From positions 31,251,001-31,315,000 of the forward strand of contig NC_088330.1 in the NCBI RefSeq assembly GCF_036884655.1: DNA of 64,000 nucleotides, written 5' to 3'. Under the pieces are notes generated by a model, which saw only the letters and a list, made by a program, of their open reading frames with translations, did not search any database and was not told where the DNA came from. The stretch is from Musa acuminata AAA Group (taxonomy: Eukaryota; Streptophyta; Magnoliopsida; Zingiberales; Musaceae). Below, piece after piece: positions 1 through 64,000 of the stretch. A program made the translations under genes and the position numbers. Numbering within the stretch: position 1 is the stretch's first letter; the number at the start of each line of letters is the position of its first letter.

Positions 1-324
1 GGTAAGATGGGACCTCTGAGAGTGAAGTCAATTCAAGTCGAGCAAATTATCTTTAGGAAGCTCTTTATGCCACACAGCATCATGTTGGTCGTCGCATGCG
101 TTTACCCATTAAACACCTTCAGTACTTTCTCAATCTGTCAGCCTGTTTCTGCGAATTGAAATTAATCACTACAGAATGGGCAGGTCTTTACCACATGCCC
201 TCCGCTACAGCATCAGCTTCATACTACAAAAAAGGCATGGTCATATGATGTGAACAACAACCCCTACTTTAGCCGACTTGTTGACTTGGTGGCACAGCCG
301 GAGAACGGGAGTCCATATAGTCGA
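1..324. other. 3' flank of receptor kinase A
   Basis: Downstream of the minus-strand stop codon of gene A (TGA at 325-327). The DNA is of mixed composition. I see no second gene, no clear polyadenylation signal and no transposon motif. It should hold the 3' untranslated region of A. Confidence 0.4.
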
Positions 325-3300
325 TCATATTTTAGCATTCATCAAGTCAGAAAGCTTGAGCACATCGAGAGAAGGGAGACTCGGCAGTGTGTTGACAGTC
401 GATAGGGTTCCAAAGACCTGCTTCATTGTTGGGCGTGACTCTGGGTCATGTTCCACGCAGCAAAGTGCCAACCTCAAAACTGCAGCTACCTCGTCTGCAA
501 CCTCCGTCGTAGGGAGTGATGGACGCTGGTCTAATACATATTTCACAAGCGTGTTTTTCGGCGACGAAGGCAATGACAGAACGGAAACGAGTCCTTCCCC
601 ATGTCCTCCTATTAGCAACTCAAGCGTGACCACTCCGAAACTGTAAACATCGCATTTGGTGGTCACTCTCATCTCATAAGCAAGCTCTGCAAACAATAAC
701 CGATAACTGAGGAAACCTTATATCGTAGAAGGATCTCCAAAAGACAGCTATGTTAGGCTACTTTGCGCCTTGATTGATGAATAACTACGTGTACAGTAAA
801 TCGACTGCTGTTTTCTATTTCTAGATTGATGAATAATTCATGTAAATGAGCTACAAGCTGATGGACTTTTAACTTGCAAAAAATGTATTACTATATGACG
901 TCGGGGGAGAAACTTACCCGGTGCCAAGTAACCATATGTGCCGGCAAGCATGCTCCAATTTGATGAATCTGGCTTCAGGAGTCGAGCAATACCGAAGTCA
1001 GAAACACAAGCCTTGAGTTCTGAATCGAGCAGAATATTGTTGGTGGTTATATCTCGATGAACAATGGGCTGATCGCAATCATGATGCATGTAGGACAGAG
1101 CACGAGCCACATCTTTGACAATGTTCACCCTCTTCACCCAGTCCAGTTCGGCAGCTGCTGCTTCGCTTCTGAGGAGGGATCCCAAACTTCCTCTCTCCAT
1201 GTACTCGTACACCAGAAACTTGTGTCGAGCAGAGGAGCAGAATCCGTAGAGCTTGACGATATTTCGATGTCGAATTTGAGTAAGAGTATGTATCTCGTTT
1301 TGAAAGGATTGCTCATTCGATGTAGTTTCGTCTTCCTGCAGATGAATTTTCTTCACTGCTAGCATCTGCCCGCTTGCTAATTCTGCTCTGTAAACGCTGC
1401 CATATGCACCACTTCCGATACAGTATTTTTCATTAAAATCCTCCGTGGCTGCAACGATATCCTTGTATGCATATCTTCCATCAAAGTTAAATACACAGAA
1501 TGTCATGCCTTCTTTGTTGCCATTATTTTCGGAAGGCATGGAATGTTTCTTGGTCTTCTGGAACAGTGAAAACGCTCCCAGAAAAACAAGTAAGATGAAT
1601 AAGACGACCACGGAAGCAATGATAGCTGAGATAATTGCTCTGTGGTGCTTGCTTCCATCATCTTTCCTTGCAGTATAAGAAAGACATGGAGGCAGGCCTT
1701 TGACGACCCCACACAAACCTTTGTTGTGGACAAACCACTTCGCCGGAGCTTTCCGGAAGACTGGGCTCTCAGGCACAGCCCCCTCCAATTCATTATATGA
1801 TACGTCAATGATTAATAAGCTGATCATAGCACTTAGTGAAGATGGAAGACCACCGGACAAATTATTATGTGAAAGATTCAGAATTTGCAGCATCGTAAAT
1901 TTGCTGAACTGTGAGGGTATCTCACCCGTTAGTGAGTTGTGGCTGATGTCCAATGCGTCTTGAAGGTACTCCAGGCTGCTGATCTCTGCAGGAATTCCTC
2001 CGCCGAACTTGTTGCCATTAAGCTTCAGGGAGCGGAGCTTGAGACAAATGCCTATTTGAGACGGTATTCTTCCTGTCAAGCTGTTAACTGATAGATCAAG
2101 GATTTCAAGGTCGGGCATCCTTCCAAACTCTATTCGTACCTCTCCGCCGAGTCGATTGCAGCTCAGGTTCAGCTTGTAGAGATGAGGTAACCTGCCCAAG
2201 CTCTTTGGAATCTCCCCCTGTATGTAGTTGGAAGAAAGGTCCAGTTCTCGTAGTTCTTTTAGATTGCCGAATTCTGGTGGAATGGCTCCGGTGATGTTGT
2301 TATTTGAGATTGCCAGGAATGTGAGATTGTCCCATCTTCCCCAGTCCGGTGGGAGTGCACCTGACAGCCTATTGAATCTTAAATCCATATAAGAAAGATG
2401 TGGATACACTCCAAGAAGTTGTGATATATCCCCGGTGAGTTGGTTTTGCTCGAGACGGACTCTGATCAATCCCGTACAGTTCTTTAAGGTCCCGGGAAGT
2501 TGACCTCTGAAGCTGTTGTTGCTCAGTGAGAGATACTGTAGGGTTCTTCCTTTGCATATGTTTGAAGGCAAGTCACCGGAGAAGAAGTTGTCTGACAAAA
2601 GAAGCGATGTCAAACCTGTGATGTTGTTTAACTCGGCAGGCAATCGACCAGACAACCGATTATTGAACAAGCTTAGGTCAGTGAGGTTCCTTAAGTTACC
2701 GAGGGATGGAGGAATTGAACCGAAAAGCTGGTTGTCATGGAGATCCATACCCATGAGCTGGGTCAGGTTTCCGAAAGTGGATGGTATCGGCCCGGAGATT
2801 TGGTTGTCGGGCAGAAAAAGTTGGGTTAACTCATTTAGATTTCCTATTTCCGGAGGGATAAAGCCTGACAATTCATTAACCCCAAGATAAAGTTTCTCTA
2901 ATTTAGTTTGATTTCTTCCCATAAAGAAAGGGATATGACCTGTTAGACTATTATTGAAGAGCCCAAGTTGCACAAGGTTTAATAGATTTCCCAATTCTCT
3001 GGGGATGAATCCCGAGAGATGATTTTGATAGAGAGACAACTGGTATAGGTTCGTCAAGTTCCCTAAACTGGGAGGGATGAAGCCAGATAGTTGGTTCTTC
3101 CCAAGTGTAAGATGCATCAACTTCTGAAGTCTTCCAAGCTCCTGAGGTATGAAACCTGTAAGTTGATTATCTCGCAGGTGCAAGTGCAGAAGCCCGGTAA
3201 GATTGCCCAAGGATGGAGGGACACAACCACTTAACTGATTCTTATTGAGATATAGGAACTGGAGCGCCTTCATGGAGCCTATTTCGACCGGGAGTTTGCC

Positions 3301-3717
3301 CGTGAACCGGTTGCCTATGAGATCAAGATATACAAGGTTGGAGAGAGCCGAGATGGTCGGAGGAATGACGCCGTCGAGCTGGTTGTAGGAGAGGTTGAGA
3401 CCGACGAGTGATCTCAGCGTTGAGAAGTTGAGAGCATCGAGTGGCCCTTCTAAGCTCATGTTCGGCAGGGACATGTCGGTGATGACAGGGCGTCCTCTGT
3501 GCGTAAGGTTGCACGTAACTCCAGTCCAATTGCACGGATTAGAGCTGAGATTCCAGGATTCAAGGAATTGCTGGCCGTGAAGGGTGGACTTCCAGTGGAG
3601 TAGGGTTCTCGCTTGTGACCCGAGTGAAGCTGTCACCGAGACAAGATGAAGAGAGAGCAGCAGCAGGAGGAGGAGAGTGGTGGAGAGGAGCCGCCAGTTG
3701 TGCAGCTGGGATGCCAT
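325..3717 (-). CDS. LRR receptor-like kinase A (MIK2-type), copy 1
   Basis: Plasma-membrane leucine-rich-repeat receptor serine/threonine kinase. Seen: coding exons 3717-918 and 686-325, with intron 687-917 (GTAAGT donor, TTGCAG acceptor). The join restores the APE motif (LAP-E) and gives 1053 aa. Order: signal peptide 1-30; LRRNT with the PCNWTGVTC cysteine pair at 62 and 69; about 23 LRRs to about 670; transmembrane helix about 694-716; kinase with glycine loop GSGAYG 768-773, Lys789, HRD 887-889, DFG 907-909 and APE 932-934. All catalytic residues are present, and it is of the RD type. The start at 3717 is chosen because it begins a signal peptide and a TATATAA box (3777-3783, minus) lies about 60 bp upstream. 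Known: the closest described relatives are Arabidopsis MIK2/At4g08850-type receptors, which sense peptides in immunity and development. The ligand here is unknown. Confidence 0.93.
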
Positions 3718-3776
3718 AACTGCAGTGTAGCTAATCTGGGGGAGGATGTTGTACTGCGAGCAAACAAAGGGCCCCC

Positions 3777-3783
3777 TTATATA
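3777..3783 (-). promoter_or_regulatory. TATA box of receptor kinase A, copy 1
   Basis: TATATAA on the minus strand, followed by AGGGGGC, about 60 bp upstream of the chosen ATG at 3717. Spacing suits a plant core promoter with a short 5' untranslated region. The in-frame ATG at 3879 lies upstream of this box and is therefore unlikely to be used. The counterpart in copy 2 is at 34,802-34,808. Confidence 0.65.
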
Positions 3784-6700
3784 AAATGTATGAGATGGAT
3801 GTGAACTATCGGGAACCGAGTGGGACACATTTGAGTCTCGAGCATCCTCACCAGCGGGGCTAAAGCTGGATGGTATCACCCGTTCTCATACTGTCCCCTC
3901 CGCAAAGTTTGGTGGAAGGTTAAGAACCATTCCTTTCGATCATCACCACTGATCACTTTTCATTTGTTAAAGCATAAAGTGGACTCATATTATTACTTGG
4001 AGAAATCAATGTCATATAAGAAGAAGCACAAGAAAAACTTTGTAGCAGTAGATTTCTGAGTCAAGTCAGCTGATCTTATCAAGTTCAGCATATTCCTTCT
4101 GCCAACTGGGAGTCATTTTATAATGTTAAAGAAGAATAGCTTTTGTGACATTAAAATAAGAAGAGTTTTGCTGATGATTAATTTTCTGCAGGTGCGGCCA
4201 AATGATCAAGATTCGGAATCCCATTTGAGACGTCGACTTTCTATAAATCAAATGTGCAGTTAAAACTATTGTCATTTATTAATGCATAAAGAGATATATG
4301 ATTTCATAGCTTCCGACATCAGGTTGGGTAGAGAGGAGGTGCGAAACCTATCCAATGGTTCATTTTAAATGAGTTGGATCCTGATTCGATTTGGTTGATC
4401 CACAGTGGATTCGGAACTTGATAGTGAAACCATCAGAGCCAGGAGATTTATCGAGGCAAATGGAGGATAGAGTATTCCAGATTTGAACGATGGGCATTAT
4501 GAAGAATACCTCAACCAATGAGACTAGGCCATATGTTAGGCTTCAAAGGATAAGGATCCTACTTCCCAAAGTCATAATAGAATGAGACAAAGGCAAGGGA
4601 CATGCATGATGTGTTGGTCTGGGACAATTTGGTTTTGGACATTAAAGGTGCTTAATTTGGTTTTGATGGCTGCGAATGGCAACCCGGGCATGGTAGTATT
4701 TAGTGTTGAGGTCCCCATCATTAATCCATTTAACCTTGGTGTGAGACCACCATCTAAGATTAACGTGGCGAAGGAGGGCATTATATTTGTTACGAAGACA
4801 AATAAGTGCTTAAGAGCAAAATCACATTGTTTAAGAGAGTATCAGCTTGAGTGGATGCAAGAAGGTCTTGAATCCTTGAGTCTATCAAGATTATTTGAGA
4901 TATTTGTTAGAGGGGAAGTGAATCAGGAAGAGCGAGACCAAGATCTAGAAATAAGATCATGGGACTTAGGATGTTCAACCCAAAAATTCTGGAAGTAAAA
5001 CAGCTTGTTAGTAGGTTTGTGTAAAGGAGAGATGAAAACAAAAATGGAGCAATGATCTAAAGCAAACTAAGGGACCCTCCCAATTGTTACATGATATTTA
5101 TTTTGGGCCAGAGAAACTAAGATCCTTAAGTCTCACATTTTCTAAAAATCATATAAAGTTTAAACAGAGAAATAGCAAGAGATATGATGACCTTCATATT
5201 TGTCTTAAGGCAAGAAAATACAAATGAAATCTCCCAGAAGAAGCCATAAAAAATCATCAAAATCTATCAAGTACAAAGTGCTCAATATAAGTTTACTTTT
5301 CCAACAAAGAAACACATGCATATATAATTGAGAGAAGCCACAAAGAAGAGTTTTTGAATTGAAAAATGACATGTATAAAATGCTTACGAGAAGATAGAAT
5401 CTATATGTTGATACAATCTATTTTTTAGAGGAGTTAGCTAGTAAAACCCATCGAAGAGATAGCAAAGGAGCTCTATCATCTTCCCAAAAAAATGATAGTT
5501 AGCTGAGCACGGGACGCAAACAAGTTTATTTCCTATTAAATCTAGAGAGTTCGATCTAGATAAATGTGAAAGATAATGTCAAACATGTCTCTCCGAAGAC
5601 CTTTATAGTTCCAACTAAAGATATGCAGAGGTAGTAAGAGAAGAAGGGGTAGAGGAGGAAAGAATATTCCCTACTTCAAGGTCTCCTAAAGAAAAAGCAA
5701 CTAGAGCTTTCTTCGTATAACCGCGTCCAGCACCACCATAAATTTAACCTTCTCTCTTATTGTTGTGTAGTCATTGGAAGAAGTGTGTCCGATCTAAGCA
5801 CCCACCACAACCTCTTTAGCCAAGACAGTATCATCTCTTGCAACAAAGTTAAGCGGATCTCATGACATGGAATCAATGATCGACTTGACCTTATCTATCG
5901 ATCCTTGAAGGAGGGATAGGAGCAAGAGTGAATGTGAATCAAGGTTTCAGGTGATTTAAAAAGATGGAACGAGGAGAGGAAAGAGAGGATTTATAGGAAG
6001 CCCTCCTCATGTGATTGGAAGTAGTGGTGGTAAGAGACATGTGGCTCGAGGTGGCAATGATAATAGAGAGTGCTAAGGAAGCACCAATGGAAGATAGTTT
6101 CAAGGAGCCAACCTTATATTGAAAGTCTAAGGGATATCATAAGAGGGCACCATGGTAACCAAGCTTGGGACAATTATCATCCTCTAGACTTGTCACATAA
6201 TGATGATTTTTAATTTTGAAACCTAAATAACAAAGGTTTATCATCCTCTAGTCTGCTTATTACTTCTCGACTTGGACCAATCTCCCCGGGATTAGTGGTG
6301 TCAATTAAGAAAGCTTCTAGTTTACTAGATCAAAATTTTTTCTTACAAATTGTTACACCACTGTCACCCTAGATTTGTTAAATTTGATTTTTCTACCTCT
6401 AATTCATGTCATTTCTGCTCAATACCAATGAGACTTTCAATATCATCTCTTCTTCTTTTACCATATAATAGTTACGTTATGAAAATCCTTTGAAACCCAA
6501 CTTTGGATCTTTTCTTCCTTTGATACTAAGCATGGCGATATATGGCTCTATGAAGGGTCAGATGTTGACTCTAAAGCCTCCTCTACTTTAAGAGCCTTGA
6601 TTATATCCTTTGGTGGTTTTGGAGGGTTAAAAATAACTAGATCTTCAAACCGAGAGTTTTAGGAGAAGATCTCACTTAGAGATTTCTTAGTCGAGACTAT

Positions 6701-6806
6701 AATCTGAGTGGCTTAAATTTAAATATGATGTTCCTTAAATAAAAAAATAAAGATGAAGGCACTTATTTCATTTTATATCTCGATACTAGTGATGCATAAT
6801 TTTTTG

Positions 6807-6909
6807 ATTAAAAAAATTTAAAGGATTAGAGGGTTCTCTTCTTGGTAGCAATTTTCATTAAAAAAATTTAAAGGATTAGAGGGTTCTCTTCTTGGTAGCA
6901 ATTTTCATT
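6807..6909. repeat. Perfect 50-bp tandem duplication, copy 1
   Basis: A 50-bp block beginning ATTAAAAAAATTTAAAGGAT is present twice in direct succession. The identical pair recurs at 37,832-37,934, so the small duplication predates the 31-kb duplication. Confidence 0.95.
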
Positions 6910-7654
6910 CATGATAGCGTATGTAAAGTTTTGCTAGATGGTGCCAATCGTATTCATGTTAAAACTGATTCTAGGAGCCTTATTGGCTCTTATTTTATCA
7001 CATATTTATCATATCAACTGATTAGCAATTCATGCTAGAATATATCTATCTATAATTTTTTGAAGAAGGGAGTGGCCCTTGCATCTTTTTTTTGCTTATT
7101 ACCTTTGATCTTTGGAGTGACTTTTTTACCCATGCATTTTGTTAATTAATTTTTTTTAGAAAAAACTTCATGTTTAGAAAAATTATAATTCGGACAACTT
7201 TAGAAGAAGTAGAAAGAAAATAACAAGAACAACCATAAAATAGTAGTACATATAAATGAAATCATTCAAATAAAAAATATGATTTTAAATAAATATTTTT
7301 ATTAGTTTATGAACAAGAGCAATCAAATATAAAGACTTATATATCAGTTATAGTATTTTTTAATAAACTTTTCAAAACACTTTAGTTTTAACAGTACTGA
7401 AATTTAGGAATTCAATCATTTACCTATGGATCGATTCATATGATATAATTAAGTATTGCTCTAATTATCTTGTCAGAAGAATATTACAAGGATTATGATA
7501 AATAGGATACTCTTTGTAAAATATAAAAAAGTAATAGCTATTGAGAAAATCCAAAAAAAATAAAAAAAAATTCAAGAATTCATCATACTCTTTTCTCTAA
7601 TTGATGTTATTTTGCATTATTTTTAACCTTCACAGACAAACTATCTTTCGAGTA

Positions 7655-7860
7655 AGTCAAGTCAAGTCAACCATTCAAGTTAACTATTTAATAAAACTTT
7701 TATAATAGGACATCCCAAGTCAAGTCATGTCAACCCAACCTTATAATAAAACTTTTATAATACGACAACTCAAAGTCAAGTCAATCATATTAATTCATGT
7801 AACATTTAGAGAAAGAAAAACTTATATAAGGGCACATTTCAAGTCAAGTCAAATTTATCT
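7655..7860. repeat. GTCAAGTCAA repeat block (W-box-like words), copy 1
   Basis: AAGTCAAGTCA-type words occur four times. Two are embedded in a degenerate 55-bp repeat starting ATAAAACTTTTATAATA at 7691 and 7746. On the minus strand, the coding strand of both kinases, they read TTGACTTGACTT, which contains TTGACT, a form of the W-box bound by WRKY factors. The block lies about 570 bp past the stop of B and about 4 kb upstream of A. A regulatory role is inference. Confidence 0.55.
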
Positions 7861-8317
7861 TGTTAAGTTCAACAAATTCTTCCGCTATATATATATATAT
7901 CTATAATTCAAATTTCATAATAATAACATACAATTAGATACGATAGGAACACACATATACATTATAGTAAACATCATGATCTTAGGCATAACATTACTAA
8001 GATCACAACAACATGTAATTAGTGATACAAATATGCATACACATTAGTACACATCATAGGAACACACCAAAGAAATCATCCAACTTTCACAACAACTATA
8101 CATGATATGAACAATATTCTCAACACTCAATCACATCACAATAAACATATATAAGTATTCCTGATAGTAAACATAACAATATTCACAACAGTAATGCATA
8201 CAACAATAAATATATACACATCATAGTATTCACAACAAAGATATGAACATACATTAATATCACAATAAACATATATATATATCAAATTTCATTACAGCAA
8301 ATAACATATATAACGCT

Positions 8318-8384
8318 CAAAGAACTTTACCAGCAACAGAAACTTGACAAGGAAACCATGTACTACACACAGATCAAACATTTC
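8318..8384 (-). other. 3' flank of receptor kinase B (duplicated at 15.75 kb)
   Basis: About 50 bp beyond the stop codon of B on the minus strand. It matches 15,746-15,803, where no kinase coding sequence follows. The shared stretch includes AGATCAAACMTTTC and CAGAAACTYRACAAG. Confidence 0.6.
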
Positions 8385-8433
8385 AATGGCCAATAAAAGA
8401 TGCAACTCATGGAAGCGAAGTCCACTTGGTTGA

Positions 8434-11400
8434 TCATAATTCTCGAGTCATCAAATCAGAAAACTTCAATGCATGGAGAGATGCCGGGCTCGGCTGCGCC
8501 GATAACTTTTCAAAGATCTGCTTCATCGTCGGGCGAGTTTCTGGGTTGATGTCAACGCAATGGATCGCCAATGTTAAAGCTGCAGCTACTTCATCTGCAA
8601 CTTGGTCAACCGGAAGTGATACACGCTGGTCTAATATATCTTTCACAAACAGGCTTTGGCCGGAGGAAGATGATAGGGTAGAAATGATATCTCCTGGGTA
8701 AGTTCCCACTAGCAACTCGAATGTGATCACCCCAAAACTATACACATCGCATTTGGTGGTCAGTCTCATTGTATAAGCGAGCTCTACAGACAAGAAGATC
8801 GATGATCAAACTTACTTGATACAGAAGTATGTCCTCTAATTAGACAAGAACATCGCATTTGCACTTTTACTGAAACAACAATCTACGATTCTAAAATACC
8901 ATAACATGTCAAGAAATCTTCGTATGGAGTTACAAAATATTAATCAAAATGTTACCTGGTGCCAAGTAACCATGCGTGCCGGCAAGCATGCTCCAGTTTG
9001 AGGTATCTGGATTCAGGAGTCGAGCAATGCCGAAGTCAGAAACACAAGCCTTGAATTCTGAATCCAGTAGAATATTGTTGCTGGTTACATCTCGATGAAC
9101 GATAGGTGGAACACAATCATGATGCATGTAGGAGAGAGCACGAGCCACATCTTTGACAATATTCACCCTCTTCACCCAGTCTAATTCTGCTGCTGCTGCT
9201 TCGATTCTGAGGACGGATCCCAAACTCCCTCTCTCCACGTACTCGTACACGAGAAACTTGTGGTGAGGAGAGGAGCAGAATCCGTAAAGTTTGACAATAT
9301 TGCGATGTCGGATTCGAGTAAGAGTTTCTATCTCATTCTGAAAGGGTTGCTCGTCCACCGTGTTCTCGTGTTCGGACAGGTGAATTTTCTTCACTGCTAG
9401 CACCTCTCCACTTGATAATTCTGCTCTATAAACACTGCCATATGCACCGGTTCCGATCAAGTACTTCTCATCGAAATCTTCTGTTGCTTCGATGATATCC
9501 TTGTATGCAACTTTTCCATCAAAATTCAATACAGAGAATGTACCCTGTTTGATGGGATTATTGACAGCTTGCACTCTGTGTTTCTTCCTCTTCAGGAATC
9601 GCAAAGCAATTCCGACGAACAGAAGCAAGAGAAGTAAGACGACCATAGATGCAACAATAGATAAGATAATGACTGTGTGGTGCTTACTTCCGTGGTGTTC
9701 ATTTGCAGTAGATGAAGCACATGGAGGCAAACCTTTGACAACCCCACACAAACCTTTGTTGTGGACAAACCACTCTACTGGAGCTTCCTGGAAATGCTTG
9801 TTATCGGGAACTGGACCCTCCAATTCATTGTATGAGACATCGATGATGAACATGCTACGCATATCCCTAAAAGTTGATGGAAGATTACCCGTCAAGCCAT
9901 TGTGTGATAGATTCAAATTTTGCAACATCAACAATTTACCGAATTGCGTTGGTATCTCCCCTGTCAAAGAGTTATGGCTGATGTCGAGTGCGTCTTGAAG
10001 GTACACCAGATTGCCTATCTCAAAAGGAATGCTTCCGCTGAGGTTGTTGTTGTTAAGCTTCAGCAAATGGAGTTTCATGCAATTTCCTATCTGATATGGT
10101 ATCCTACCTATCAAGCCGTTTCTCGACAGATCAAGAAGTTCAAGGTTGGACATCCTTCCCAGCTCTGCTGGTATCTCTCCAATGAGTTGATTGTTGCTCA
10201 GGTTGAAGTTATAAAGATGAGCCAGGTTGCCCAAGCTCCTTGGGATCTCTCCTTGGAAGTAGTTTGAAGAAAGGTCCAGTTCTTCCAGCTTTGATAGCTG
10301 TCCAAGTTCTGATGGTACAACTCCGGTGATATTGTTATTTGAGATTCCTAGGAACGTCAGATTGTGCCATCTTCCCCAATCTGATGAGATTGTACCAGAC
10401 AATCTATTGAAGCTTAAATCCAAATACAAAAGATTGGGATATGCCCCAAGGCGTTCAGATACATCCCCGGTCAGTTGATTATGATGCAGACGAACATTCT
10501 TTAGGCTCGTACAATTCTTCAATGTTGCGGGAATGGGACCTTGGAAGCTGTTGTTGCTCAGCATTAGGATCCGTAGGGCTCCTCCTTTGCATATCTCTGG
10601 AGGCAAATAACCAGAAAAGTCATTATCTTTCAATAGAAGAATAGCCAGACCTGTAATGTTGTTCATCTCCGGAGGCAAAGGACCAGACAAATGGTTATAG
10701 GATAAGCGTAGATCGATGAGGTTCCTTGAGATACCAATTGATGGTGGGATTTGGCCTGAGAGTTTGTTCACTTCGAGAGACAAGTTAGTGAGTTGGTGCA
10801 GCTTTCCAATTTCTGGAGGCATAGAACCTGACAATTCATTCATCCAAAGGTAAAGGATCTCCAACTTGCTCTGATTTCCCACCGATGAAGGGATGGGACC
10901 TGTTAGGCTATTATTAGAGAGCGAGAAGTGCACCAGGTTTATTAGGTGTCCTAGTTCTCTAGGAATGAATCCCGTTAATTGATTTTGAGCGAGTTCCAAC
11001 ATGTAGAGGTTTGTCAAGTTTCCTAAACTAGGAGGGATGGAACCATTGAGTTGGTTTGCCCAGAGATCAAGGATGGTCAACTTTCTAAGTCTCCCCAACT
11101 CCTCAGGGATGACATCCGTAATCATATTTTTTTCTAGTTGCATGTCTGTAAGCCTACTAAGGTTGCTCAGAGACGGAGGTATAGGACCACTTATCTGATT
11201 CTGGCTAAGATTTAGGAACTGAAGCGCCCTCACGGAACCAATCTCGACAGGAATTCTGCCTGTGAACCTGTTAGCAGCCAGATCAAGAGATACGAGGTTG
11301 GAGAGAGCCGAAATGGTAGGGGGAATGTTCCCGTTCAGCTGGTTGTAGCTGAGGTTGAGATTGGCAAGCGATCGGAACGCCGAGAAATTAAGAGCATCGA

Positions 11401-11680
11401 GTGGCCCCGCTAAGCTCATATTTGGCAGCTGTATCTCGGAGATGACCAAGCGCCCATTGCGTGCGATGTTGCATGCAACCCCAGTCCAATTGCATGGACT
11501 GGAGTCGACGTTCCAGGACGCGAGCAACTGCGGACTTCGGAGTGTGGACTTCCAATGGAGTAGAGCTCTCCCTTGGAACCCCAGCACGGAAGCTGCTCTT
11601 ACAAGAACAACAAAAGGAGAGAGAAATACTAGTAGGAGTAGTGTGGTGGAGAGAGAACTTCTGCGTAGTTGACATGCCAT
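8434..11680 (-). CDS. LRR receptor-like kinase B (MIK2-type), copy 1
   Basis: Paralogue of A, in the same orientation. Coding exons are 11680-8956 and 8783-8434, with intron 8784-8955 (GTAAC donor, TCTGTAG acceptor) at the same site within APE, giving 1024 aa. Order: signal peptide about 1-30; LRRNT with SPCNWTGVAC (Cys63, Cys70); about 22 LRRs; transmembrane helix about 670-692; kinase with GTGAYG 743-748, Lys764, HRD 862-864, DFG 882-884 and APE 907-909. The frame is open and the active site complete. Compared with A it lacks one 24-residue LRR around the ninth to tenth repeats, and the upper LRR surface differs most while the kinase is strongly conserved. The ATG at 11680 lies about 70 bp below a TATAAAAG box. 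It is probably a peptide or damage receptor; the ligand is unknown. Confidence 0.93.
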
Positions 11681-11749
11681 GATCGTAATATAGCTTAAGA
11701 AAGGATTGCAGAACTTTTTGTCGTGGGTTTGGGCAAAGAGATGAGGGAA

Positions 11750-11757
11750 CTTTTATA
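11750..11757 (-). promoter_or_regulatory. TATA box of receptor kinase B, copy 1
   Basis: TATAAAAG on the minus strand, about 70 bp upstream of the ATG at 11680. It supports that start. Homology to the orphan promoter copy at 13.54 kb begins at the upstream edge of this box. Copy 2 position: 42,775-42,782. Confidence 0.65.
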
Positions 11758-12250
11758 GGCGATACTCCCCTGTGAAAATAATGTCTTTACATTTACATCC
11801 AACAATATCGTGTTATGCACGTTGCCTAGTAGGCTTTTACTGTCCTCATCCAATGTTCTTAGAGTGAGACTTAGTTTACAGAGTCAATAGAAAAGGGAAA
11901 AAAAAATGAAGCACCAATTGGATAATTGTGGTTGTATAGACTTAGTTTATAGATTCAATAGAAAATAAAATAAAGGAAAATAAATGTGGTTGTATAATGT
12001 GGAAATATTTGTGTATTTCGAAGGAAAAAAATACGAGTGATCGGAAATAGCCATTTTTTCTTTGGTGAATCCAGTCTCTTGTTAGTGCCTATGATCATCA
12101 GTTGAAGTCTTCGTTTTGCTGTCGACATTTAATGTTGTGCCACCTCACTGTTGGATGATTGACTTGTGCGCCTGTCCAGTAGAGAAATATTCCAAGAACA
12201 TTTAATGGTTGATGATTCTATTTCTCTTGAGGTTTGACACCATTGACTTG
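11756..12250 (-). promoter_or_regulatory. Promoter region of receptor kinase B, copy 1
   Basis: About 500 bp immediately upstream of B. It resembles 13,543-14,062 along its length: shared landmarks are TAGGCGAT, GTGTTATGCACGTTGCC, AGCACCAATTGGATARTTGTG, ACATTTAATGTTGTG and GGTTGATGRTTCTATTTCTC. It carries TTGACTTGACC near 12,243-12,255, a pair of W-box-type words, and another TTGACTTG near 12,160. WRKY control is inference. Confidence 0.6.
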
Positions 12251-13538: not shown

Positions 13539-13542
13539 ATGG

Positions 13543-15260: not shown

Positions 15261-15300
<40 letters not shown>

Positions 15301-47815: not shown

Positions 47816-47846
<31 letters not shown>

Positions 47847-51571: not shown

Positions 51572-54500
51572 TAATTTTTTTTTAATAAGCCTTCAAGGAT
51601 TGCTCGGTTGGTGACTTCGATTTCACAATTGGTTTAAGAATAAGCCATCAAATTGAATTTTAGTTGGATCCCCAGAGATGTCATAAAATTCTTTGAACCT
51701 GACATTACTGAACTATATCCTATTATCAATAATAAGTGCTTTAGGAACTCTAAATCGAGAGATGACACATAAATCCCTCCACCTATCTTTCTATGATCGA
51801 TGTCATAGGTTTAGCCTCTGCCCATTTGATGAAGTAGTCAGCTCCAACCATAGACATTTCCTTTAGCCTGAAGTAGATGGAAAATATCCTAAAATATCTA
51901 GCCCCCATTATGCAAAGGGCTAAGATGAATCTATCAAGGTTCATTCCATTGTTGGGAGTCTTTAAACTTGAGCATTACGTTAACATCTATCATAGTGTTA
52001 AATGTATCTTACTACATCGTACTTGGGAGTTGGCTAGTAATACCCCTGTGAAGAACTTTGAAGGCCAATGATCTTCCCCCAATGTGTTATTCGCAAGTTA
52101 CCTCCTAAATTTTAGATAGTAGGAGAGATGCTTGGTAGGGTGTAGACATCATAGTAGTGGTCGCGACATTGATCAACTATAAAATACACCGTCAAGGATG
52201 CAATATCATGCTTGTTGTCTTCATACTTTTCTTTTCTTAGTTGGATTATATGGGAGAGTTTCAATCATAAGATATTTTAAGATGTTTACAATACAAGTAG
52301 TCATTATTTGACTTTTGTTTATGCTCCCTAGAACTTTTAAGATCACCTCTTTTGATGGGCATACATGGTTTCTAGAGAATATCTTAGATAATGCATTTAC
52401 TGCTATGTTGTCTCTTTAGGGGACTTGTTCAATACTGAATGATAGGATGTTAGTTATCATTTGCTTTGCCTCCATAAGATATAAGGATATGATAGAATCA
52501 CGGGCCTCATATATACCATTGACTTGGTTGATAATCAATAAGGATTTAAGGATTTACTATAAATTTTCAGGCTCTAGATCCTCATTCCTTTATTGAGTTT
52601 TAGACTAAATAGTAGAGCCTCATACTTTGCCTTATTGTTAGTCACTTTGAAATTAAAACATAGCGCATGCTCATAACTCCCCCCCCCCGATTGCTGACGT
52701 TGTAGAGCTATTCACATAGAAGGTCTAGCATTGGAGCTCCTGCGAAGCCTCTTCAACAAAAGTCATTTTTACCATGATCGGCCAAGGCTTGAGCCTTGAT
52801 GGCGATCTATGGTTTGTAAGAGATATCAAACTCGCTAAGCTCCACTACCTATTTAAGGAGTCTCCAAGTTGCATCAGGCTTTGAGAGGATCTGATGCATT
52901 GGTTTGTTTGTCATGATAATAACATGATGAGCTTAAAAGTATAGGCAGAGATTCCTTGCTACTAGCACTAATATGTAAGTTAGCTTTTCGAAGTTATGAT
53001 ATCGAGTTTATATTTTATGAAGTACATGATTGTATAGTATATTAGTCTTGGACTCGATCTTTTTCCTATATTAATACTAAGCTTACAACCATAGAAGTTA
53101 TTGCCAAGTATAGGCATAATTCATCTCTAGGGAAAGGACTAGAGAGTTAAGGTGGAGTTGTCAAATAGGCTTTGAGCTGGTCAAATGCCATTGACACTAT
53201 TCGATTCATTAAAAATCCTTCAATCACTTTAAAGTCTTAAAGAATAATAAACATCAATTGCTTATCGTAAATAAGAAGTGGCTCGGTGTGGTGATCCAGC
53301 CCGTTAGCTACTGAACCTCTCTTATTGAGGCTGAGAGCCTCATGTTAATGATGGTCTAGCCTTACTTAGGGTTTGCATATGTTCTCCATTAACGGATCAT
53401 GAAACCTAAAAATCTTTTAAAACTCACATCGAAAGCACACTTCATAGGATTCAATGATATTTAGAATTTTTTAATAGTCACAAATGTTTTCCCTAAGTTA
53501 GAGAGATAGGTGCTTGCAACACGGCTCTTCATTAGCATGTCATCAATATATACCTTTATTTTCCATCTAATTTGGTGTTAGAATATCTTGTTGATTGTTC
53601 TTTGGTAAGTTGCTCTAATATCTTTTAGCTCAAATAGTGTTACTTTGTAGCAGTACAAACCTTTGTTAATAATGAAGGCAGTGTACTCTTTATCTTCTCG
53701 CACCATCTTTATCTAATCATATCTAGAAAAAGCATCTATGAAAGTTAATAATTCATAACTAGAGGTCGAGTCGACCAATTGGTCTATTGGAAGGAGAGGA
53801 AAGTTATCTTTTAGAAAAAATCAGTATAATCAATACACATTCTTTATTTTTCATTATTTATTTTAACAAGGACTAGATTTGCAAACCACTTATGATAGTA
53901 GATGTCATGAATAAAATCAGCATTTAACAACTTGCTAACTTCTTCTTCGACTACTACTTGTTGATTTAGGGCAAATCTTCAAGGCTTATGACAAGTTGCT
54001 CAATATACTGAATCGATAGTGGTTGTCTTGACGGTATGTTTTGGTCGCTCAAGGTCTAAGAAAATTTCTTCCTATGGCTCCTTCTTGGAGATGAGAGGAT
54101 GTTGGGGATGGATCTCTAGAGTCCATTTGTTGTATAGGGTGAGCTATTCTCTTAGACAAGTTGATCCACATCAAATAGCATTGCCTTGACTCTTTGGGAT
54201 CACTTCTTAGCTCTGTCACTCCTGAGCTAGTGAAATTTTTTGATGTCATGTAGTAGGTTGATACTACCGCTCATATATGATTAAGCGAGGGACACCCTAT
54301 GATGGCATTATATGCAGACGAAAGGTCAACCACCAAAAACTTGGTCTTCATAGTTTTTGAGCAATTGTCAGACTTGAAGATGACGTAAAGATCTATGGTC
54401 CCTAGCGAAGTGATGGAGTCCCTTAAGAACCCAGTAAAGGTTGAGGAGATCAGTTATAGATCCTTGGTAGATAGACTAATTTTTTGAAAAGCATCATAGT

Positions 54501-55818
54501 AGAGTATATTTATTGAGCTTCTAGTGTCGATCATGATCATTTTCATTAATGCATTAGTGATCCCGATGGAGATTACCAATGCATCATCATGTTTTGGGTC
54601 TGGGTGCTTATCCTATTCCTTGAACATAATTGATTGGTCTCAATTATAATAGAATCTCTTGCATAGGATTTTTGGGTAGATGAACTACTAGCGCTCGCGA
54701 TTGGCTCTCAATGATCATATTGATTTGTTGCTCAATGGGGCCTTTGGGCCTCGATAATGTTTTATGAATCTTAGGTAGAAACTTATGAAGATGACTCCTT
54801 TTGATTAACTCTTCAATTTGCTCCTTTTGGGCATAGCAATCTTCCGTATTAAGTCCATGGTCTTGATGGAAGTGATAGTATTTTATCTTTTTTTTTTGTC
54901 AATGGGGCTTTCATGGGGCATGGTGCCGTAAGAGCCCTTCTTCTGGGATTTGCATGAATAACTCTATATGGGAGGTGTTAAGTGAGGTGAAATCTTATTG
55001 TGGTAATCAGTCACTTTCTATTTATCATTTCATGGCCTTTCCATAGGGTTTTGTTATTAAGATCTTTCCTCCTTTGTCGTCTTTTTCAGTTCAACCTTTC
55101 TATTTCCAGTGATTATAGACTCAACTACTATATGATGGTTTGCCTCTTATAAAAGCTCTAGAAATATGGTCGGAGACTTAGTGATGACTTAGTGATAGTT
55201 GGAGTTCGCTAATGTATGCATTGATGAGGACAAATGGAGTTGGATTAGCAATTAAGTTAACCTCATCATTAAATTTTCTATATAACTCTCCAAGAATTCC
55301 TTCTCTTCCTATCTGATGGCTAGGAGAAAGGTGGTGGGCTTCTCTAAAAGTTGATAACTAATAAAGTTAAGCTTAAACTCTTTAGTCAATTGCCCAAATA
55401 AGAAGATTGACTCTCAGAGAGCTTAACAAATTATTCACGTGCAACTCCCCCTTAAGGTTGTTAGGAAAGTTCAACATATTAGTGAGTTGATGGTTCCAAA
55501 TAACATCATTTGAGACATAAAAGTTATGATGTATTCCGAAGGGTCATATTTTCTCTTGTATACATTGAGTGATGGGAATTGGATGCCTTAGTGGATCAGC
55601 TCCTCATTGTTACTTTTTGTGAAAGGAGACCACAGGTATGATTCTATTTCTAGCCAATTTTCCTATTTTATCTTATTTTCCAATTACTAATCCATTTTAT
55701 TTAGTTGGTCCGAACCTCAACTAAAAGTTTGGTTGATTTAGTAATCGACTCGTTGGGAAGATCTGGAATTGGTGTTGGAATAGGGATTTCAGTCAAAGGG
55801 GGAGACTACACTTCTTGT
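51572..55818 (-). mobile_element. Ty3/gypsy retrotransposon relic (Tat-like), copy 2
   Basis: Duplicate of 20,540-24,786 (offset 31,032), equally broken. Substitutions from copy 1 were seen at 52,286 and 53,434, both transitions. Confidence 0.75.
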
Positions 55819-57408
55819 TGGGAAAAACCTATTATAGCAGAATAATTCTTTTTCCCTCTTTGTGTATCAAAATGGGTTCCTCATCAAAATATCAACTTGA
55901 TATCAAAAGCATATATCAACCAAAGTAGCAAAAACAGTAGAGCAAAAAATTAATCACAAAGTGAGACCAAATTTTAATGTAGAAAATCCAATGCAGGAAA
56001 AATCACGGGACCGTAGTCCACTTCAAACTTCCACTATCACTAATAATGATAACATATTTATAATAAGTCTTCTCTGAAATATCAAGAGGATCAAAATAAC
56101 CTCAAGATCATATATCTTGGCTCAAGAATAACATATCATCATCATAAAGAGAATTTTATGTCTCACAAAGTGGGTATAGTAGGAAAGTACCTTAGAGATG
56201 ATAAATTATAAATCAGCACCATTAGGATTGTAGAGATTATTGTAAGGATTTTTCACATATAATTTGGGTTAAAACTGATAAAGTTTGGCCACTGATCGTC
56301 AAGTAGAAAAACTCAAAATCCTAATGGTCTATTTTCTCTTTCTCTCTCTGCTCTTTTCTCTCCCTGTGCATTGTCACCGTTCGTTGCACGCACCGTTCGT
56401 TCGCTGGCCTTACTGTGCACGTCTGATTCTTTTTCTTTTCATTTTTTTAATAAATCAGATTTGGGCTGACTGCCCAAATCATCTAGTCAAAGCCCATATA
56501 TGGGTTGAACCTAACAATTCTCCCCCTCCAACTCATATGGTGGGCTATACTAAGCCCGCTCTTCGCCTACATACTTTAAGCTTCTCCTTATGCAAAGACT
56601 TTGTCAACATATTTGATTAATTCTCATTGGTATACATATTTTCCAAGTGTAATTCTTTCATCTCAAGCACATCACAAATCCAGTGATATCTCACATAATA
56701 TGCTTGGATCTAGAATGGTACGTTGAATTCTTGGAGAGGTGAATGACACTTTGACTGTCACAGTTAATAGTATATCCTTCTTATTTCAAGCCCAATCCCT
56801 ATAGAAACTTTTTCATTCATAAAGCTTCCTTGTAGGCTTTAATAATTGCTATGTATTCTACTTCTGTGGTTGATAGAGCAACATAATTATATAACTTAGA
56901 CTGCCAAGAGATTGCTCCCCTTGCAAATGTCATCAAGAATCTCGAAGTGGACATTTTGGAATCAATATCACATGTCATGTTTGCATTTGTGTACTCTTCT
57001 AGTACAAGTTTATCACTACCAAAACATAAACACAACTTGGAAGAACCTCTTAGATATCTTAATATCTATTTCACTACTGCCCAATGTTCCTTATCAGGAT
57101 TAGAGAAAATCGGCTGACAACTCCAACTACATAAGCTATATCTGGCCTAGTACAAACCATAGCATACATCAAATTGTCTACTGTATATGAGTAAGATACT
57201 TTGGAAATTTCTTCTTTTTCTTTCTCACTTGTAGGATATTATTTTGAACTAAGCTTAAAATGACCTACAAGTGGAGAACAAACTACTTTGGCGTTACTCA
57301 TGTTGAATCTTTCAAGAACATTTTCAATGTAAGTCTCCTAAGATAGCCAAATCTTTCTTTTCTTCTTATCACGAAGAATCTTAATGCCAAGTATTTGTTT
57401 CATCGATC

Positions 57409-58035
57409 CTAAGTTTTCATGGCAAAAGACTTACTTAGCTCTCTTTTAAACTTTTCAATTTTACCAGCATCATGACCAACAATCAGTAAATCATCAACAT
57501 ATAGTAGGAGAATAATAAAATCATCATTTGAATTTATTTTCATAAATACATAATGATCAGATGTGGTTCTATTATACCCTTGGCTCATCATAAAGAAATC
57601 AAACTTCTTGTACCACTGTCTAGGTGCCTGTTTGAGTCCATATAAGCTTTTTTTAAACTTACACACCAGATTTTCTTTTCTCTTGACTTTGAAACCTTCT
57701 TGTTGCTCCATGTAAATTTCTTCTTCTAAGTCACCATGAAGAAACGTTGATTTCACATCAAGTTGCTCAACTTCTAAATTCAACCAGATAGCTAAACCAA
57801 GAACAACTCGGATAGAGAAAATTTTCACAATTGGAGAAAATATTTCTTCAAAATCAATACCTTTCTTTTGACTGAATCTTTTCACAACTAGTCGCGTCTT
57901 GTATCTTTGTTGTGAGCTATTATTTTCGGTCTTCAATTTGTAAACATATTTATTCTTGAGAGATTTCTTCTCTTTAGGCAACTTTACCAAGTCAGAGCTG
58001 TGGTTCACAAGCAAGGATCTCATATCTTCTTGCAT
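57409..58035 (-). pseudogene. Copia reverse transcriptase fragment, copy 2
   Basis: 208 open codons from the reverse-transcriptase start region to past YVDD. It is cut off from its upstream part by the 79-bp deletion. Confidence 0.85.
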
Positions 58036-58352
58036 GGCTTTAACCCACTCATTCTTCTGGTAGATGGTTGTCGCTCTCTTGTGGATCTTCTCAATGGAAT
58101 CTCAACTGGTGGTGGAGGTGCTTGTTCAGTTGGTTCAACATCATCAACTATAGGAGTATCATCACTAGCATTCTCACCACAATCTTCTTGTTCATCTCCC
58201 TCATGATCATCATGAACTACGAGTGAAGGAATTGGACCCAAACTCCAAGGAATATAAACACAAGTTTTTGGCTTCTTAATATTATCACAATCGTCAAATA
58301 ATTGGTCTTCAAGAAATACAACATCTCTACTTCTAATAATCTTCCTATTCAC
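58020..58352 (-). pseudogene. Copia integrase tail fragment, frameshifted, copy 2
   Basis: 110 codons. They match the start of the 340-codon frame of copy 1 as far as RRSTRERQPSTR, then leave frame at the deletion and stop. Confidence 0.85.
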
Positions 58353-59090
58353 TAGATCTCATAATATGTACTCAAACTCTTCATGATCATATCCTAAGAA
58401 GATACATGCTTTTGCCTTATTATTAAGCTTGAACCTCTCATCTCTAGGAATATAAAAAAATACTTTACACCCAAAGACTCTCAAATGATTACAAGATATA
58501 TCTTTTCCTTTTCATACTCTTTCTTTAGCATCACCTTTCAGATAAACTGATGGAGAAAAATTTATAAGGTTAACTATAGTTCTCACAACCTCCCCCCAAA
58601 ATGACTTAGGTAACTTAGCGTAGGAAAGAATACACCTAATCCTTTTTTCAATTGTTTTGTTCATCCATTCTACAACACCGTTCTGCTAAGGAGTTTTAGA
58701 AACTGTTTTCTCAAGCCTGATACCATAAACCCTACAGTAATTCTCAAAATGACCCCTGTACTCGCTACCATTATATGCTCGAGCACACTTTAGCTTTTTG
58801 CTAGTTTCTCTTTCAACACTAATATGAAATTCTTTGAAAACATCGAGTACATGATTTTTAGATTTCAAAGCAAAAGCCCACACTTTTCTAGAATGGTCAT
58901 CAATAAAAGTAACAAAATAAAGAGCACCTCCAAGAGTTCTAGTTTACATAGTATAGATATCATTATGAATTAAATCAATAATATCTGATCTTCGATATGA
59001 TGGATATGTATGAAAGACAACTCTATGTTTTTTTTCAACTAAGCAATGATCACAAGATTTAAGAGATGTACCTTGCAACTTTGGTAAGAA

Positions 59091-59999
59091 TTACTTTCTA
59101 GCAAGAGTTTGAAGTCCCTTCTCACTGATATGACTAAGCCTATTATGCTGAAGATCTATGCTTTCACCCTTCTGAATTGCATTAATCTCTCCTTTGTGTA
59201 GCTTAGCTTCCATGACATAAAAATAGTTAAGCTTCTTTCCTCTCGCCACAATTAGAGAACCTTTAGTGAGTTTCCATTTACTTTCACCAAAATAGTGTGT
59301 AAATCTCTCATCATCAAGTCTACCTATAGATATCAAGTTAAGATGAATATCTGGAACATGTCTAACATATTTGAGTATCAATTTGTTCTCAATACTAGTC
59401 TCCAAGCAAATATCTTCAATACCCACAATCTTAGATGTACCACTATTTCCTATTCTGACACTACCAAAATCACCAGTAGTGTAAGATCTGAAGTGATTAC
59501 CATGAGAAGTAACATGAAATGAAGCACCAGAGTCAATTACCCAATTACTATCCTGAGCTACAAGATTGACACAACCGTCATCATAAACAATAATGATATC
59601 ACCTTCAACAACAAGTATATTGGTCTCTTTCTCATTTTTCTTCATTTTATTCTGTTCTCGCTTCCAAAACATATACTCTTTCTTCTTGTGACCTAGCCTG
59701 TTATAGTGGAAATATTTGATATCCCTTCTAGACTTGGATCTTCCTCTATAACCATGTGGATTTCTACTATGACTTCTTCCACATTTTTCTTGTTTTTCAG
59801 AAACAAATGCACCAGAAGAAGATTCACCTTGTTCTTTCCTTCTAGCATCTTCATTTAGCAAATTGTCTTTAACCATATCTATAGTTAGAGTTCCCTCTGG
59901 CATGGAGTTATAAATTATCACAACATACGTTTCCCAACCTTTTGGTAAAGAGCTGAAAAGTAATAATCCTTGTATCTCATCATCTATATTTATTTTCAT
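59091..59999 (-). pseudogene. Copia gag C-terminus, protease and pre-integrase, copy 2
   Basis: Identical in translation to 28,138-29,046, including the three Cys-to-Tyr changes in the zinc knuckle. Confidence 0.85.
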
Positions 60000-61091
60000 A
60001 GCAACTAACTTGTTTGTAAGACCCTAAAATAGACTTATATGCTCAATAATATTACCACCATCTTTATACTTCAAATTTACAAGTCTTCTAAGGAGAAATT
60101 CTGTTTCCCACTGTCTTTTTCGCAAAGTGATTTTCTAACTTTTGCCAAACAACATCAGCTCTGGTTTCATCAGAAATATGCTCATGCAAATTTATATACA
60201 TCCATCTTCTAATATAAGCAATAGTTTTTCTATGTTGAACCTCTCATTCCTCATCCTCTATAGTAGAAGGTTTATCTTTAACCTTGATGGGCTTATACAA
60301 ATCTTTGCGATAGAGCAAATCTTCCATCATACACCTCTAAGTGGAATAATTTGATAAGTTCAATTTAATCATACTATCTGACTGTTCCATTTCAATCACA
60401 CAAGAAAAAAAAACTAGCACCGACCTGTTAAAGCGAAATAATTATTTTCTCTCTTTGTGTATCAAAATAAGTTCCTCATCAAAATACCAACTTGATATCA
60501 AAAACACATATCCACCAGAGCAGCATAAACAGTAGGATAATAAATCAATCACAAAGTGAGATCAAATTTTAACGTGAAAAATCCAATGCGGGAAAAACCA
60601 CGAGACCGTAGTTCACTTCAAACTTCCACTATCACTAATAATATAACATGTTTACAATAAATCTTCTCTAAAATAACAAGAGGATCATAATAACATTAAG
60701 ACCATATATCTTGGCTCAATAATAGCATATAATCATCACATGGATGAATTTCATCAAAAAGAGAATTTTAGATCTCACAAAATGGGTATAACAAGAAAAT
60801 ACCTCAGAGAGAATAAATTGTAGATTAACACCGTTAGGATTGTAAAGCTTACTACAAGAATTCTTCACATATAATTTGAATCAAAACAAAAAAACTCAAA
60901 ATCCTAATTATCTCTCTTCTCTTTCTCTCTTTGTTATTTTCTCTCATTGTGCACCGCAATCGTTCGTTGCACGCCAAATTCGTTCGCTGCCCTCATTTGT
61001 GCACGTCTCTTTCTTTTTTTTCTTTTTTTTTTAATAATTCAGATTTGGGTTGACTACCTAATCATATAGTCGAAGCGGGTTGAACCCAACA

Positions 61092-61978
61092 CTTGTGAAG
61101 TTGACACAGAGGACTATTATGGAGAGTTGGTCTAAGGCAAGGGTTTAGAGAGCTTCCTGTCTATGGTGAGAGGTAAGTTGATTTTGGGAAGACGATTTAT
61201 CTTATTCGTGATAATCGTATCGTAGAGAGCTTCCTGTCTATTTGCTCATATGATTATCTTTTAATTGTCAGATGTATAATAGAAGCGTGACGAATCCATT
61301 CTTAATGTAATTAATATATTAAACAGATTATGAATATCATAGGAGTGAATTGATTATTGATTGATTTGTATGAAAAATATTCTATATGATTGTAACATTG
61401 TACCATCCTTGATTTTTCAGAAGTTGTTACACTAGTTCTAATATCATTAAAAAGTCTATTATTGATGAGTTTCAGTTAAACTAATCAAAATTAATATACA
61501 TCAATTTAACCTAAAAAATTAAACTTTTAAATTATAGATCAAACCAATCTGATTTTTTCAATTCTGTGATGTGAGATTATCCTTTTGATTCATCTCCTTT
61601 CTCCTACCTGTAAAGGAGGTTTGTCTACACTTGACTTGTGTGATATGTAGTTCCTCTCTAGTAAGTCGTGTCATATCATATAATTTGAATCATATCTTTA
61701 ATCAATAGACCAACAACGGGTGTCACGATACTTATCAATTCGAGTTTCTTGGATTTAGTAAACTCTTCTGTTGAACCCGCTTCGTATTCAACGAAAAAAA
61801 GGTACGTTACACACATACTCGTTTCTTTATTGAAAGAAGAAAAGGACGTGTATGACTGCATGTCACTAGATTTGTTGGAGTGATTTCACAACCATACAAT
61901 TCATCTCACATTTCTTTCCCTCCTCTGATGACTCCTTGCCTTGTAAGCAGTCATTGTCTGCTTTACAGCTTCACAAAA
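61092..61978. other. Gypsy remainder and unassigned DNA up to copy 3
   Basis: Duplicate of 30,139-31,025. No gene recognised. Confidence 0.35.
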
Positions 61979-64000
61979 GGTAAGATGGGACCTCTGAGAG
62001 TGAAGTCAATTCAAGTCGAGCAAATTATCTTTAGGAAGCTCTTTATGCCACACAGCATCATGTTGGTCGTCGCATGCGTTTACCCATTAAACACCTTCAG
62101 TACTTTCTCAATCTGTCAGCCTGTTTCTGCGAATTGAAATTAATCACTACAGAATGGGCAGGTCTTTACCACATGCCCTCCGCTACAGCATCAGCTTCAT
62201 ACTACAAAAAAGGCATGGTCATATGATGTGAACAACAACCCCTACTTTAGCCGACTTGTTGACTTGGTGGCACAGCCGGAGAACGGGAGTCCATATAGTC
62301 GATCATATTTTAGCATTCATCAAGTCAGAAAGCTTGAGCACATCGAGAGAAGGGAGACTCGGCAGTGTGTTGACAGTCGATAGGGTTCCAAAGACCTGCT
62401 TCATTGTTGGGCGTGACTCTGGGTCATGTTCCACGCAGCAAAGTGCCAACCTCAAAACTGCAGCTACCTCGTCTGCAACCTCCGTCGTAGGGAGTGATGG
62501 ACGCTGGTCTAATACATATTTCACAAGCGTGTTTTTCGGCGACGAAGGCAATGACAGAACGGAAACGAGTCCTTCCCCATGTCCTCCTATTAGCAACTCA
62601 AGCGTGACCACTCCGAAACTGTAAACATCGCATTTGGTGGTCACTCTCATCTCATAAGCAAGCTCTGCAAACAATAACCGATAACTGAGGAAACCTTATA
62701 TCGTAGAAGGATCTCCAAAAGACAGCTATGTTAGGCTACTTTGCGCCTTGATTGATGAATAACTACGTGTACAGTAAATCGACTGCTGTTTTCTATTTCT
62801 AGATTGATGAATAATTCATGTAAATGAGCTACAAGCTGATGGACTTTTAACTTGCAAAAAATGTATTACTATATGACGTCGGGGGAGAAACTTACCCGGT
62901 GCCAAGTAACCATATGTGCCGGCAAGCATGCTCCAATTTGATGAATCTGGCTTCAGGAGTCGAGCAATACCGAAGTCAGAAACACAAGCCTTGAGTTCTG
63001 AATCGAGCAGAATATTGTTGGTGGTTATATCTCGATGAACAATGGGCTGATCGCAATCATGATGCATGTAGGACAGAGCACGAGCCACATCTTTGACAAT
63101 GTTCACCCTCTTCACCCAGTCCAGTTCGGCAGCTGCTGCTTCGCTTCTGAGGAGGGATCCCAAACTTCCTCTCTCCATGTACTCGTACACCAGAAACTTG
63201 TGTCGAGCAGAGGAGCAGAATCCGTAGAGCTTGACGATATTTCGATGTCGAATTTGAGTAAGAGTATGTATCTCGTTTTGAAAGGATTGCTCATTCGATG
63301 TAGTTTCGTCTTCCTGCAGATGAATTTTCTTCACTGCTAGCATCTGCCCGCTTGCTAATTCTGCTCTGTAAACGCTGCCATATGCACCACTTCCGATACA
63401 GTATTTTTCATTAAAATCCTCCGTGGCTGCAACGATATCCTTGTATGCATATCTTCCATCAAAGTTAAATACACAGAATGTCATGCCTTCTTTGTTGCCA
63501 TTATTTTCGGAAGGCATGGAATGTTTCTTGGTCTTCTGGAACAGTGAAAACGCTCCCAGAAAAACAAGTAAGATGAATAAGACGACCACGGAAGCAATGA
63601 TAGCTGAGATAATTGCTCTGTGGTGCTTGCTTCCATCATCTTTCCTTGCAGTATAAGAAAGACATGGAGGCAGGCCTTTGACGACCCCACACAAACCTTT
63701 GTTGTGGACAAACCACTTCGCCGGAGCTTTCCGGAAGACTGGGCTCTCAGGCACAGCCCCCTCCAATTCATTATATGATACGTCAATGATTAATAAGCTG
63801 ATCATAGCACTTAGTGAAGATGGAAGACCACCGGACAAATTATTATGTGAAAGATTCAGAATTTGCAGCATCGTAAATTTGCTGAACTGTGAGGGTATCT
63901 CACCCGTTAGTGAGTTGTGGCTGATGTCCAATGCGTCTTGAAGGTACTCCAGGCTGCTGATCTCTGCAGGAATTCCTCCGCCGAACTTGTTGCCATTAAG
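61979..64000. repeat. Tandem unit, copy 3 (partial, first 2,022 bp)
   Basis: The sequence repeats 1-2022 and 31,026-33,047, with no difference seen by eye. The window ends inside receptor kinase A, so the total number of copies is unknown and is at least a little over two. Confidence 0.96.
62303..64000 (-). CDS. LRR receptor-like kinase A, copy 3 (partial, cut by window end)
   Basis: Exon 2 at 62,664-62,303 and the 3' part of exon 1 from 62,896 to the window edge, with intron 62,665-62,895. Visible: the last LRRs, membrane helix and whole kinase with Lys, HRD, DFG and the spliced APE motif, identical in translation to copies 1 and 2. The N-terminal part lies outside the window; nothing suggests truncation in the genome. 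Confidence 0.92.

Follow-up and report, generated by a model that had tools for sequence, protein, structure and literature searches.

The process that we propose here for a receptor kinase locus of banana is of a known kind: classic R-gene clusters also grow by unequal crossing-over. What is unusual about the locus, the left portion of which fills 64,000 nucleotides of Musa acuminata AAA Group (NC_088330.1, positions 31,251,001 to 31,315,000; hereafter the window), is the size of its unit, the near-identity of its copies, its block structure, and its contrast with the other homologues. Such plant receptor and resistance gene clusters, of which the L-type lectin receptor kinase arrays are an example (PMC5322546), resemble it in having tandem receptor kinases with haplotype-variable copy number, a hybrid at an exchange point, and a diversifying recognition domain. 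By comparison with those clusters, the banana unit measures 31 kb and carries two genes together with retroelement remnants, and the copies that we call U are more than 99.9% alike, form three-unit blocks, and lie on one homologue only. Polar fish antifreeze protein gene arrays, as far as the available text of PMC13032017 describes them, likewise differ in copy number between haplotypes and have counts made uncertain by paths through the assembly graph, but they concern other genes in other organisms. The titles and abstracts of open-licence literature in PMC, a scope outside which most subscription papers fall, yielded no account of the banana array.

We searched an assembly of 1.528 Gb in 1060 contigs and placed the window on contig C4:31161137-31225136. 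Related matches sit on contigs eleven apart (C4/C15/C26, C5/C16/C27, and C7/C18/C29), a spacing that we therefore read as triploidy with x = 11, and C4, C15, and C26 look like the three chromosome 4 homologues of what looks like a triploid Musa; Musa acuminata, Musa balbisiana, and Ensete are among the named high-ranking protein relatives. On C4, the array is assembled as ten copies over about 290 kb in the order D-[U1 U2 U3]-[U1 U2 U3]-[U1'' U2'']-E, and the 314 kb of C4 that we read contain zero N. An older copy borders the U units on each side, with D immediately left of the window, starting at about 31,130,400, and E at the right end, extending to at least 31,422,032. Seven distinct sequences are present on C4, namely U1, U2, U3, U1'', U2'', D, and E. 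The copies lie head-to-tail without spacer, their number is unequal among the homologues, and a hybrid copy switches between the two end copies; we consider it likely, on the evidence of the assembled sequence, that the locus is a homologue-specific tandem array which grew by unequal exchange and in which seven copies can be distinguished.

Within the window, unit copy U1 occupies 1..31025 and U2 31026..61978, while only the start of the hybrid copy U3 is included (61979..64000), the rest running on to C4:31251000; all three lie on the + strand, and the unit boundary is arbitrary, being set by the left edge of the window. Exact 31-mers recur at offsets of 31025-31032, 30953, and 61978, and the unit junctions at 31025/31026 and 61978/61979 join copies on the same strand without spacer. 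When window 1-31025 was compared with the region by BLAST, the second copy matched over 27,034 bp at 99.945% (8 mismatches) and over 3,923 bp at 99.924% (3 mismatches), and a MAFFT alignment of U1 with U2 contains 10 single-nucleotide polymorphisms (SNPs) and 5 insertion or deletion (indel) events; for a repeat of such length and identity, chance is no concern. A sequence-only reading of the window had described two full units and part of a third in one orientation without spacer, with about ten substitutions between complete copies and a deletion at 58,056. BLAST and the repeated 31-mers agree on this arrangement, the 11 BLAST mismatches and 10 MAFFT SNPs bear out the substitution count, and the deletion is real, for 79 alignment columns (unit 27024-27102; site 58056..58057) are absent from U2 alone among the four distinguishable full U copies.

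The other two homologues carry a D-E-like pair only, without U-type units, and on C4 the U units lie between D and E. Kinase A, one of the two receptor kinases of the unit, has 10 loci on C4, 2 on C15, and 2 on C26, and kinase B has 10, 2, and 1 (each among the best 37 of 146 candidates). Among the best 40 of 813 matches, the U-type retroelement half gave six, all on C4, the D-type half gave three on C4 and others on C15 and C26, and the E-type half was found on C4, C15, and C26. A left-flank probe, which carries an ankyrin-like frame named by eye, was matched at full length once each on C4, C15 (98%), and C26 (95%), its paralogues elsewhere being partial and at most 83% alike save for pieces of less than 200 bp at 84-89% (best 40 of 1508); another flank probe, L010:1-4500, landed in dispersed repeats. 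Because the left flank occurs at full length once per homologue and each homologue has its own D-E locus, the joined haplotypes that the sequence-only reading had raised as an alternative are disfavoured. In its most explicit form, this explanation would have two nearly identical D-U-U-E haplotypes joined end to end, U3 being a false E-to-D join, and it does predict both the order D-U1-U2-(E/D)-U1''-U2''-E and how little D differs from U3 and U1 from U1''. However, the locus is already present on three homologues, D and E share just 112 bp free of differences at the switch, which is short for a read overlap, and among the listed matches to the array probes none lies on a contig beyond C33; we regard it as very improbable.

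Copy U3 looks like a product of unequal exchange between the end copies. It is U-type to about 4.3 kb, next E-type, and last D-type: at D/E-diagnostic sites it is E-like at 21 of 21 between unit positions 7984 and 9161 and D-like at 418 of 418 between 9274 and 14280, and the E-to-D switch lies inside kinase B between 9161 and 9274. Beyond the switch, D and U3 are separated by 13 SNPs and 4 indels, and U3 is therefore not D assembled twice. U-type sequence starts near 30.42 kb in D, and it stops near 3.64 kb in E compared with 4.31 kb in U3, a disparity of ends that suggests a conversion tract. Every one of the four possible combinations at 2713 and 30507 is present among the four U copies, which is also a sign of exchange. 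As an observation apart, both U3 and E lack, at one and the same junction, a 3.1-kb stretch of U (unit 4866-7958) most of which has no counterpart in D either.

These features are consistent with a model whereby a tandem D-E pair of the two-kinase segment was enlarged by unequal homologous exchange on one homologue. Two U copies might have been present before the exchange step, a tentative element of the model. The right-end E of one array would then have exchanged with the left-end D of another, leaving U3 behind and doubling the U1-U2 pair, and the product of such an exchange would be D-U1-U2-(E/D)-U1''-U2''-E, matching the observed order. A further exchange in a 19.7-kb junction repeat could have added an extra 90-kb block to give ten copies.

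Several observations weigh against growth by unequal exchange as set out here. At unit position 9227, in the switch interval and at a site where D and E agree, U3 carries the U base, so that the switch is not perfectly simple. The model does not account for the origin of U, the tail of which is of D class at about 97%, the head of E class, and the kinase B mixed. U1, U2, U1'', and U2'' show 25 differing events in total, with private variants in each of the four, and the events at 2713 and 15288 pair U1 with U1'' and U2 with U2'', as a doubled pair would suggest; yet this pairing rests on those two variants, is contradicted by the event at 30507, which instead pairs U1'' with U2'', and is not favoured by the SNP distances (U1-U1'' 7, U1''-U2'' 7, U1-U2'' 8, U1-U2 10, U2-U2'' 10, and U2-U1'' 11). 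Moreover, block 2 equals block 1 at all 89,864 bases and has no variant of its own, and the array is known from assembled sequence alone, so that the count of ten copies would need reads; that sequence by itself is unable to fix the copy number had been said before, and we agree.

The identity of the two blocks continues exactly for 2,908 bp leftward and 16,809 bp rightward, and an exact stretch of 19,717 bp is common to the junctions D-U1, U3-U1, and U3-U1''. This length exceeds that of typical high-fidelity (HiFi) reads, and the shared junction would form a loop in any graph built from shorter reads. The seven-copy array could thus be real while the second 89,864-bp block, 3 of the 10 copies, reflects an assembly path taken twice round the loop, an explanation that is compatible with growth by unequal exchange and limits its copy number. 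It is favoured by the complete identity of the blocks in the face of about 32 events expected in 90 kb at the rate seen between U1 and U1'', and by the bias that graph paths impose on copy counts of tandem arrays (PMC13032017, in its available text). However, a genuine exchange at this junction, if recent, would give the same picture, and polishing, too, can erase differences. We judge the chances of such a double path to be evenly balanced, and the looped assembly graph suggested by the sequence-only reading thus retains its force for the second block; given the identity of block 2 and the exact 19.7-kb junction, these three copies may reflect either a loop in the assembly or duplication in the very recent past.

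With 4.5e-9 to 1.3e-8 substitutions per site each year, and with conversion assumed absent, rough ages can be given: the block with zero differences would be younger than about 1,300-3,700 years, and the 30 SNPs in about 83.8 kb that separate U1 from U1'', U2 from U2'', and D from U3 would correspond to about 14,000-40,000 years. The earlier proposal of a very recent amplification of a receptor pair therefore holds in part: a real array is the best reading for the seven distinguishable copies, but one more structured than had been supposed, with three-unit blocks, older flanking copies, and a hybrid copy, and "very recent" would suit the second block, if real, but not the older block duplication before it. 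Variation among the U copies is also uneven, in that 2 of the 25 events fall in the first 15,288 bp, the gene half (binomial P = 1.3e-5, with the cut picked after seeing the data), and most lie in the retroelement half, 15289-31025. Changes of C to T or of G to A make up 10 of the 17 U SNPs. The uneven pattern could result from conversion that acts on the gene half, or from methylation of the retroelement half and a higher rate of change there.

Kinases A and B are leucine-rich repeat (LRR) receptor kinases, with Pfam matches to LRRNT_2, LRR_1/LRR_8, and Pkinase / PK_Tyr_Ser-Thr; kinase B has 21 LRR motifs, the membrane segment was located by eye, and the two proteins are alike at 695 of 1023 residues. 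All kinase genes of the window lie on the - strand. In U1, kinase A (325..3717; exon 1 918-3717, exon 2 325-686) encodes 1053 residues and kinase B (8434..11680; exon 1 8956-11680, exon 2 8434-8783) encodes 1024, both open, as are kinase A (31350..34742; exons 31943-34742 and 31350-31711) and kinase B (39459..42705; exons 39981-42705 and 39459-39808) of U2; kinase A of U3 (62303..64000) is truncated by the window end. All 7 distinct C4 copies have an open kinase A, although that of D (C4 about 31.13 Mb) is a form of 931 residues from which 122 codons of the LRR region are missing.

Kinase B is open in four of the seven distinct C4 copies (U1, U2, U1'', and U2''), D and U3 having a common stop at codon 754 and E a single inserted base together with a stop at codon 399, and the full U unit is the sole unit type on C4 with both kinases open. 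In a protein search with kinase B exon 1 (best 50 of 5835 candidates, as for all results of this search), the exon was open in six C4 copies, which are 100% alike, and in a single copy on C26 at 93%, one TAA was found in each of D, U3, and the second U3, and both C15 copies were broken, that of C15 D matching residues 1-673 only. The E copies of C4 and C15 both match residues 351-908 and have open frames of equal length, and the break in E may therefore predate the split of the two homologues. The same search revealed that related receptor kinases form further tandem clusters on another chromosome set, on C5 at about 9.2-9.36 Mb, C16 at about 8.9-9.03 Mb, and C27 at about 5.2-5.5 Mb; matches on C5 and C16 score equally and are displaced by an almost constant distance, so that these two homologues look nearly identical there. 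We considered and rejected restoration of the kinase B of U by a single exchange of broken D with broken E, for its D/E-diagnostic sites show a mixture between 7984 and about 11900 and never switch cleanly. From this mixture and the open kinase B on C26, U may simply retain an old open form.

In the protein data bank (PDB), the best match of kinase B is MIK2, whereas kinase A matches GSO1 ahead of MIK2. Arabidopsis MIK2, an LRR receptor kinase, recognises SCOOP peptides (PMC8448819; PMC11331138) and is reported to perceive a microbial signal (PMC8448819); in the available text of these sources it is reported to be Brassicales-specific, and an identity of 60% or more to the Arabidopsis protein is reported for Brassicaceae only (PMC8448819). 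Kinase B shares with MIK2 the combination of an LRR ectodomain and a kinase. At the residues given for the pocket of MIK2 that binds the SxS motif, D246, N268, S292, H294, and H316 (PMC11331138, in its available text), it has W, E, S, S, and Y in the best phmmer register, and thus keeps 1 of 5, the LRR register being uncertain. With this difference, kinase B is probably no MIK2 orthologue.

Amino-acid change in the ectodomain of kinase B is in excess on the concave LRR face. Between U and D, the proportion of nonsynonymous differences (pN) at concave LRR positions is 0.141, compared with a proportion of synonymous differences (pS) of 0.051 for the ectodomain (one-sided Fisher P = 4e-5), concave x positions exceed convex x positions in change (P = 7e-6), and 31 of the 59 ectodomain changes fall on LRR positions 2, 3, 5, 7, and 8 across the 21 repeats. 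The same trend holds against the 5' piece of the E kinase B (352 codons; P = 0.034 and 3e-4). Over the whole ectodomain of kinase B, the ratio of nonsynonymous to synonymous rates (dN/dS) is 0.87 and hence below 1, and in the same pairwise counts kinase A shows no concave-face excess (pN 0.074, pS 0.078). Because the tests rely on Nei-Gojobori counts between pairs of copies and on Fisher tables with rounded entries, and because D is now broken, we take the concave-face excess as evidence, not proof. The pattern of kinase B suits a receptor that tracks a changing ligand, as in recognition receptors, and by multiplying the unit in which both kinases are open the array may increase how much is made of a surface receptor with a diversifying ligand face.

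Whether the receptors matter to the growth of the array is a separate question, for exchange between direct repeats requires no selection, and retroelement remnants and the broken kinase B of U3 have been amplified as well. An array that is real but neutral, which grew through recombination of direct repeats and carried the receptors along as passengers, is only slightly less probable than its opposite. Against it stand the restriction on C4 of two open kinases to the full U units, the identity of the kinase B exon-1 protein in all six full U copies, and the diversified ligand face between U and D; these points stop short of demonstrating selection for copy number.

The rest of the unit includes retroelement remnants. 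In U1, an old, decayed Ty1/copia-type retroelement on the - strand (24795..30141) is bounded by direct repeats resembling long terminal repeats (24795-25487 and 29470-30141, 77.5% alike) and contains a gag-type frame at 28138-29070 and a reverse transcriptase frame at 26377-27405. A copia-type pol fragment with a Pol_BBD domain lies at 18488..18976 on the + strand, and at window 13848-13961 a 56-bp stretch is tandemly duplicated with 94.6% likeness.

Cultivated triploid bananas are propagated clonally, and new variation in them depends on somatic change. It is tempting to speculate, although we consider it unlikely on balance, that the copies, ten or more, are all real, and that the last 90-kb block arose when sister chromatids exchanged unequally at some time in the past few thousand years, while the cultivar was being propagated clonally, and multiplied a receptor with a ligand face subject to diversifying selection. 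If so, array length would vary between clones, perhaps even from shoot to shoot, and might help to explain why disease response differs within a sterile crop. The same assembly settles seven copies by sequence and leaves three to path; a receptor array confined to one homologue, with junctions of sufficient length and likeness for recombination, would be a natural copy-number switch.

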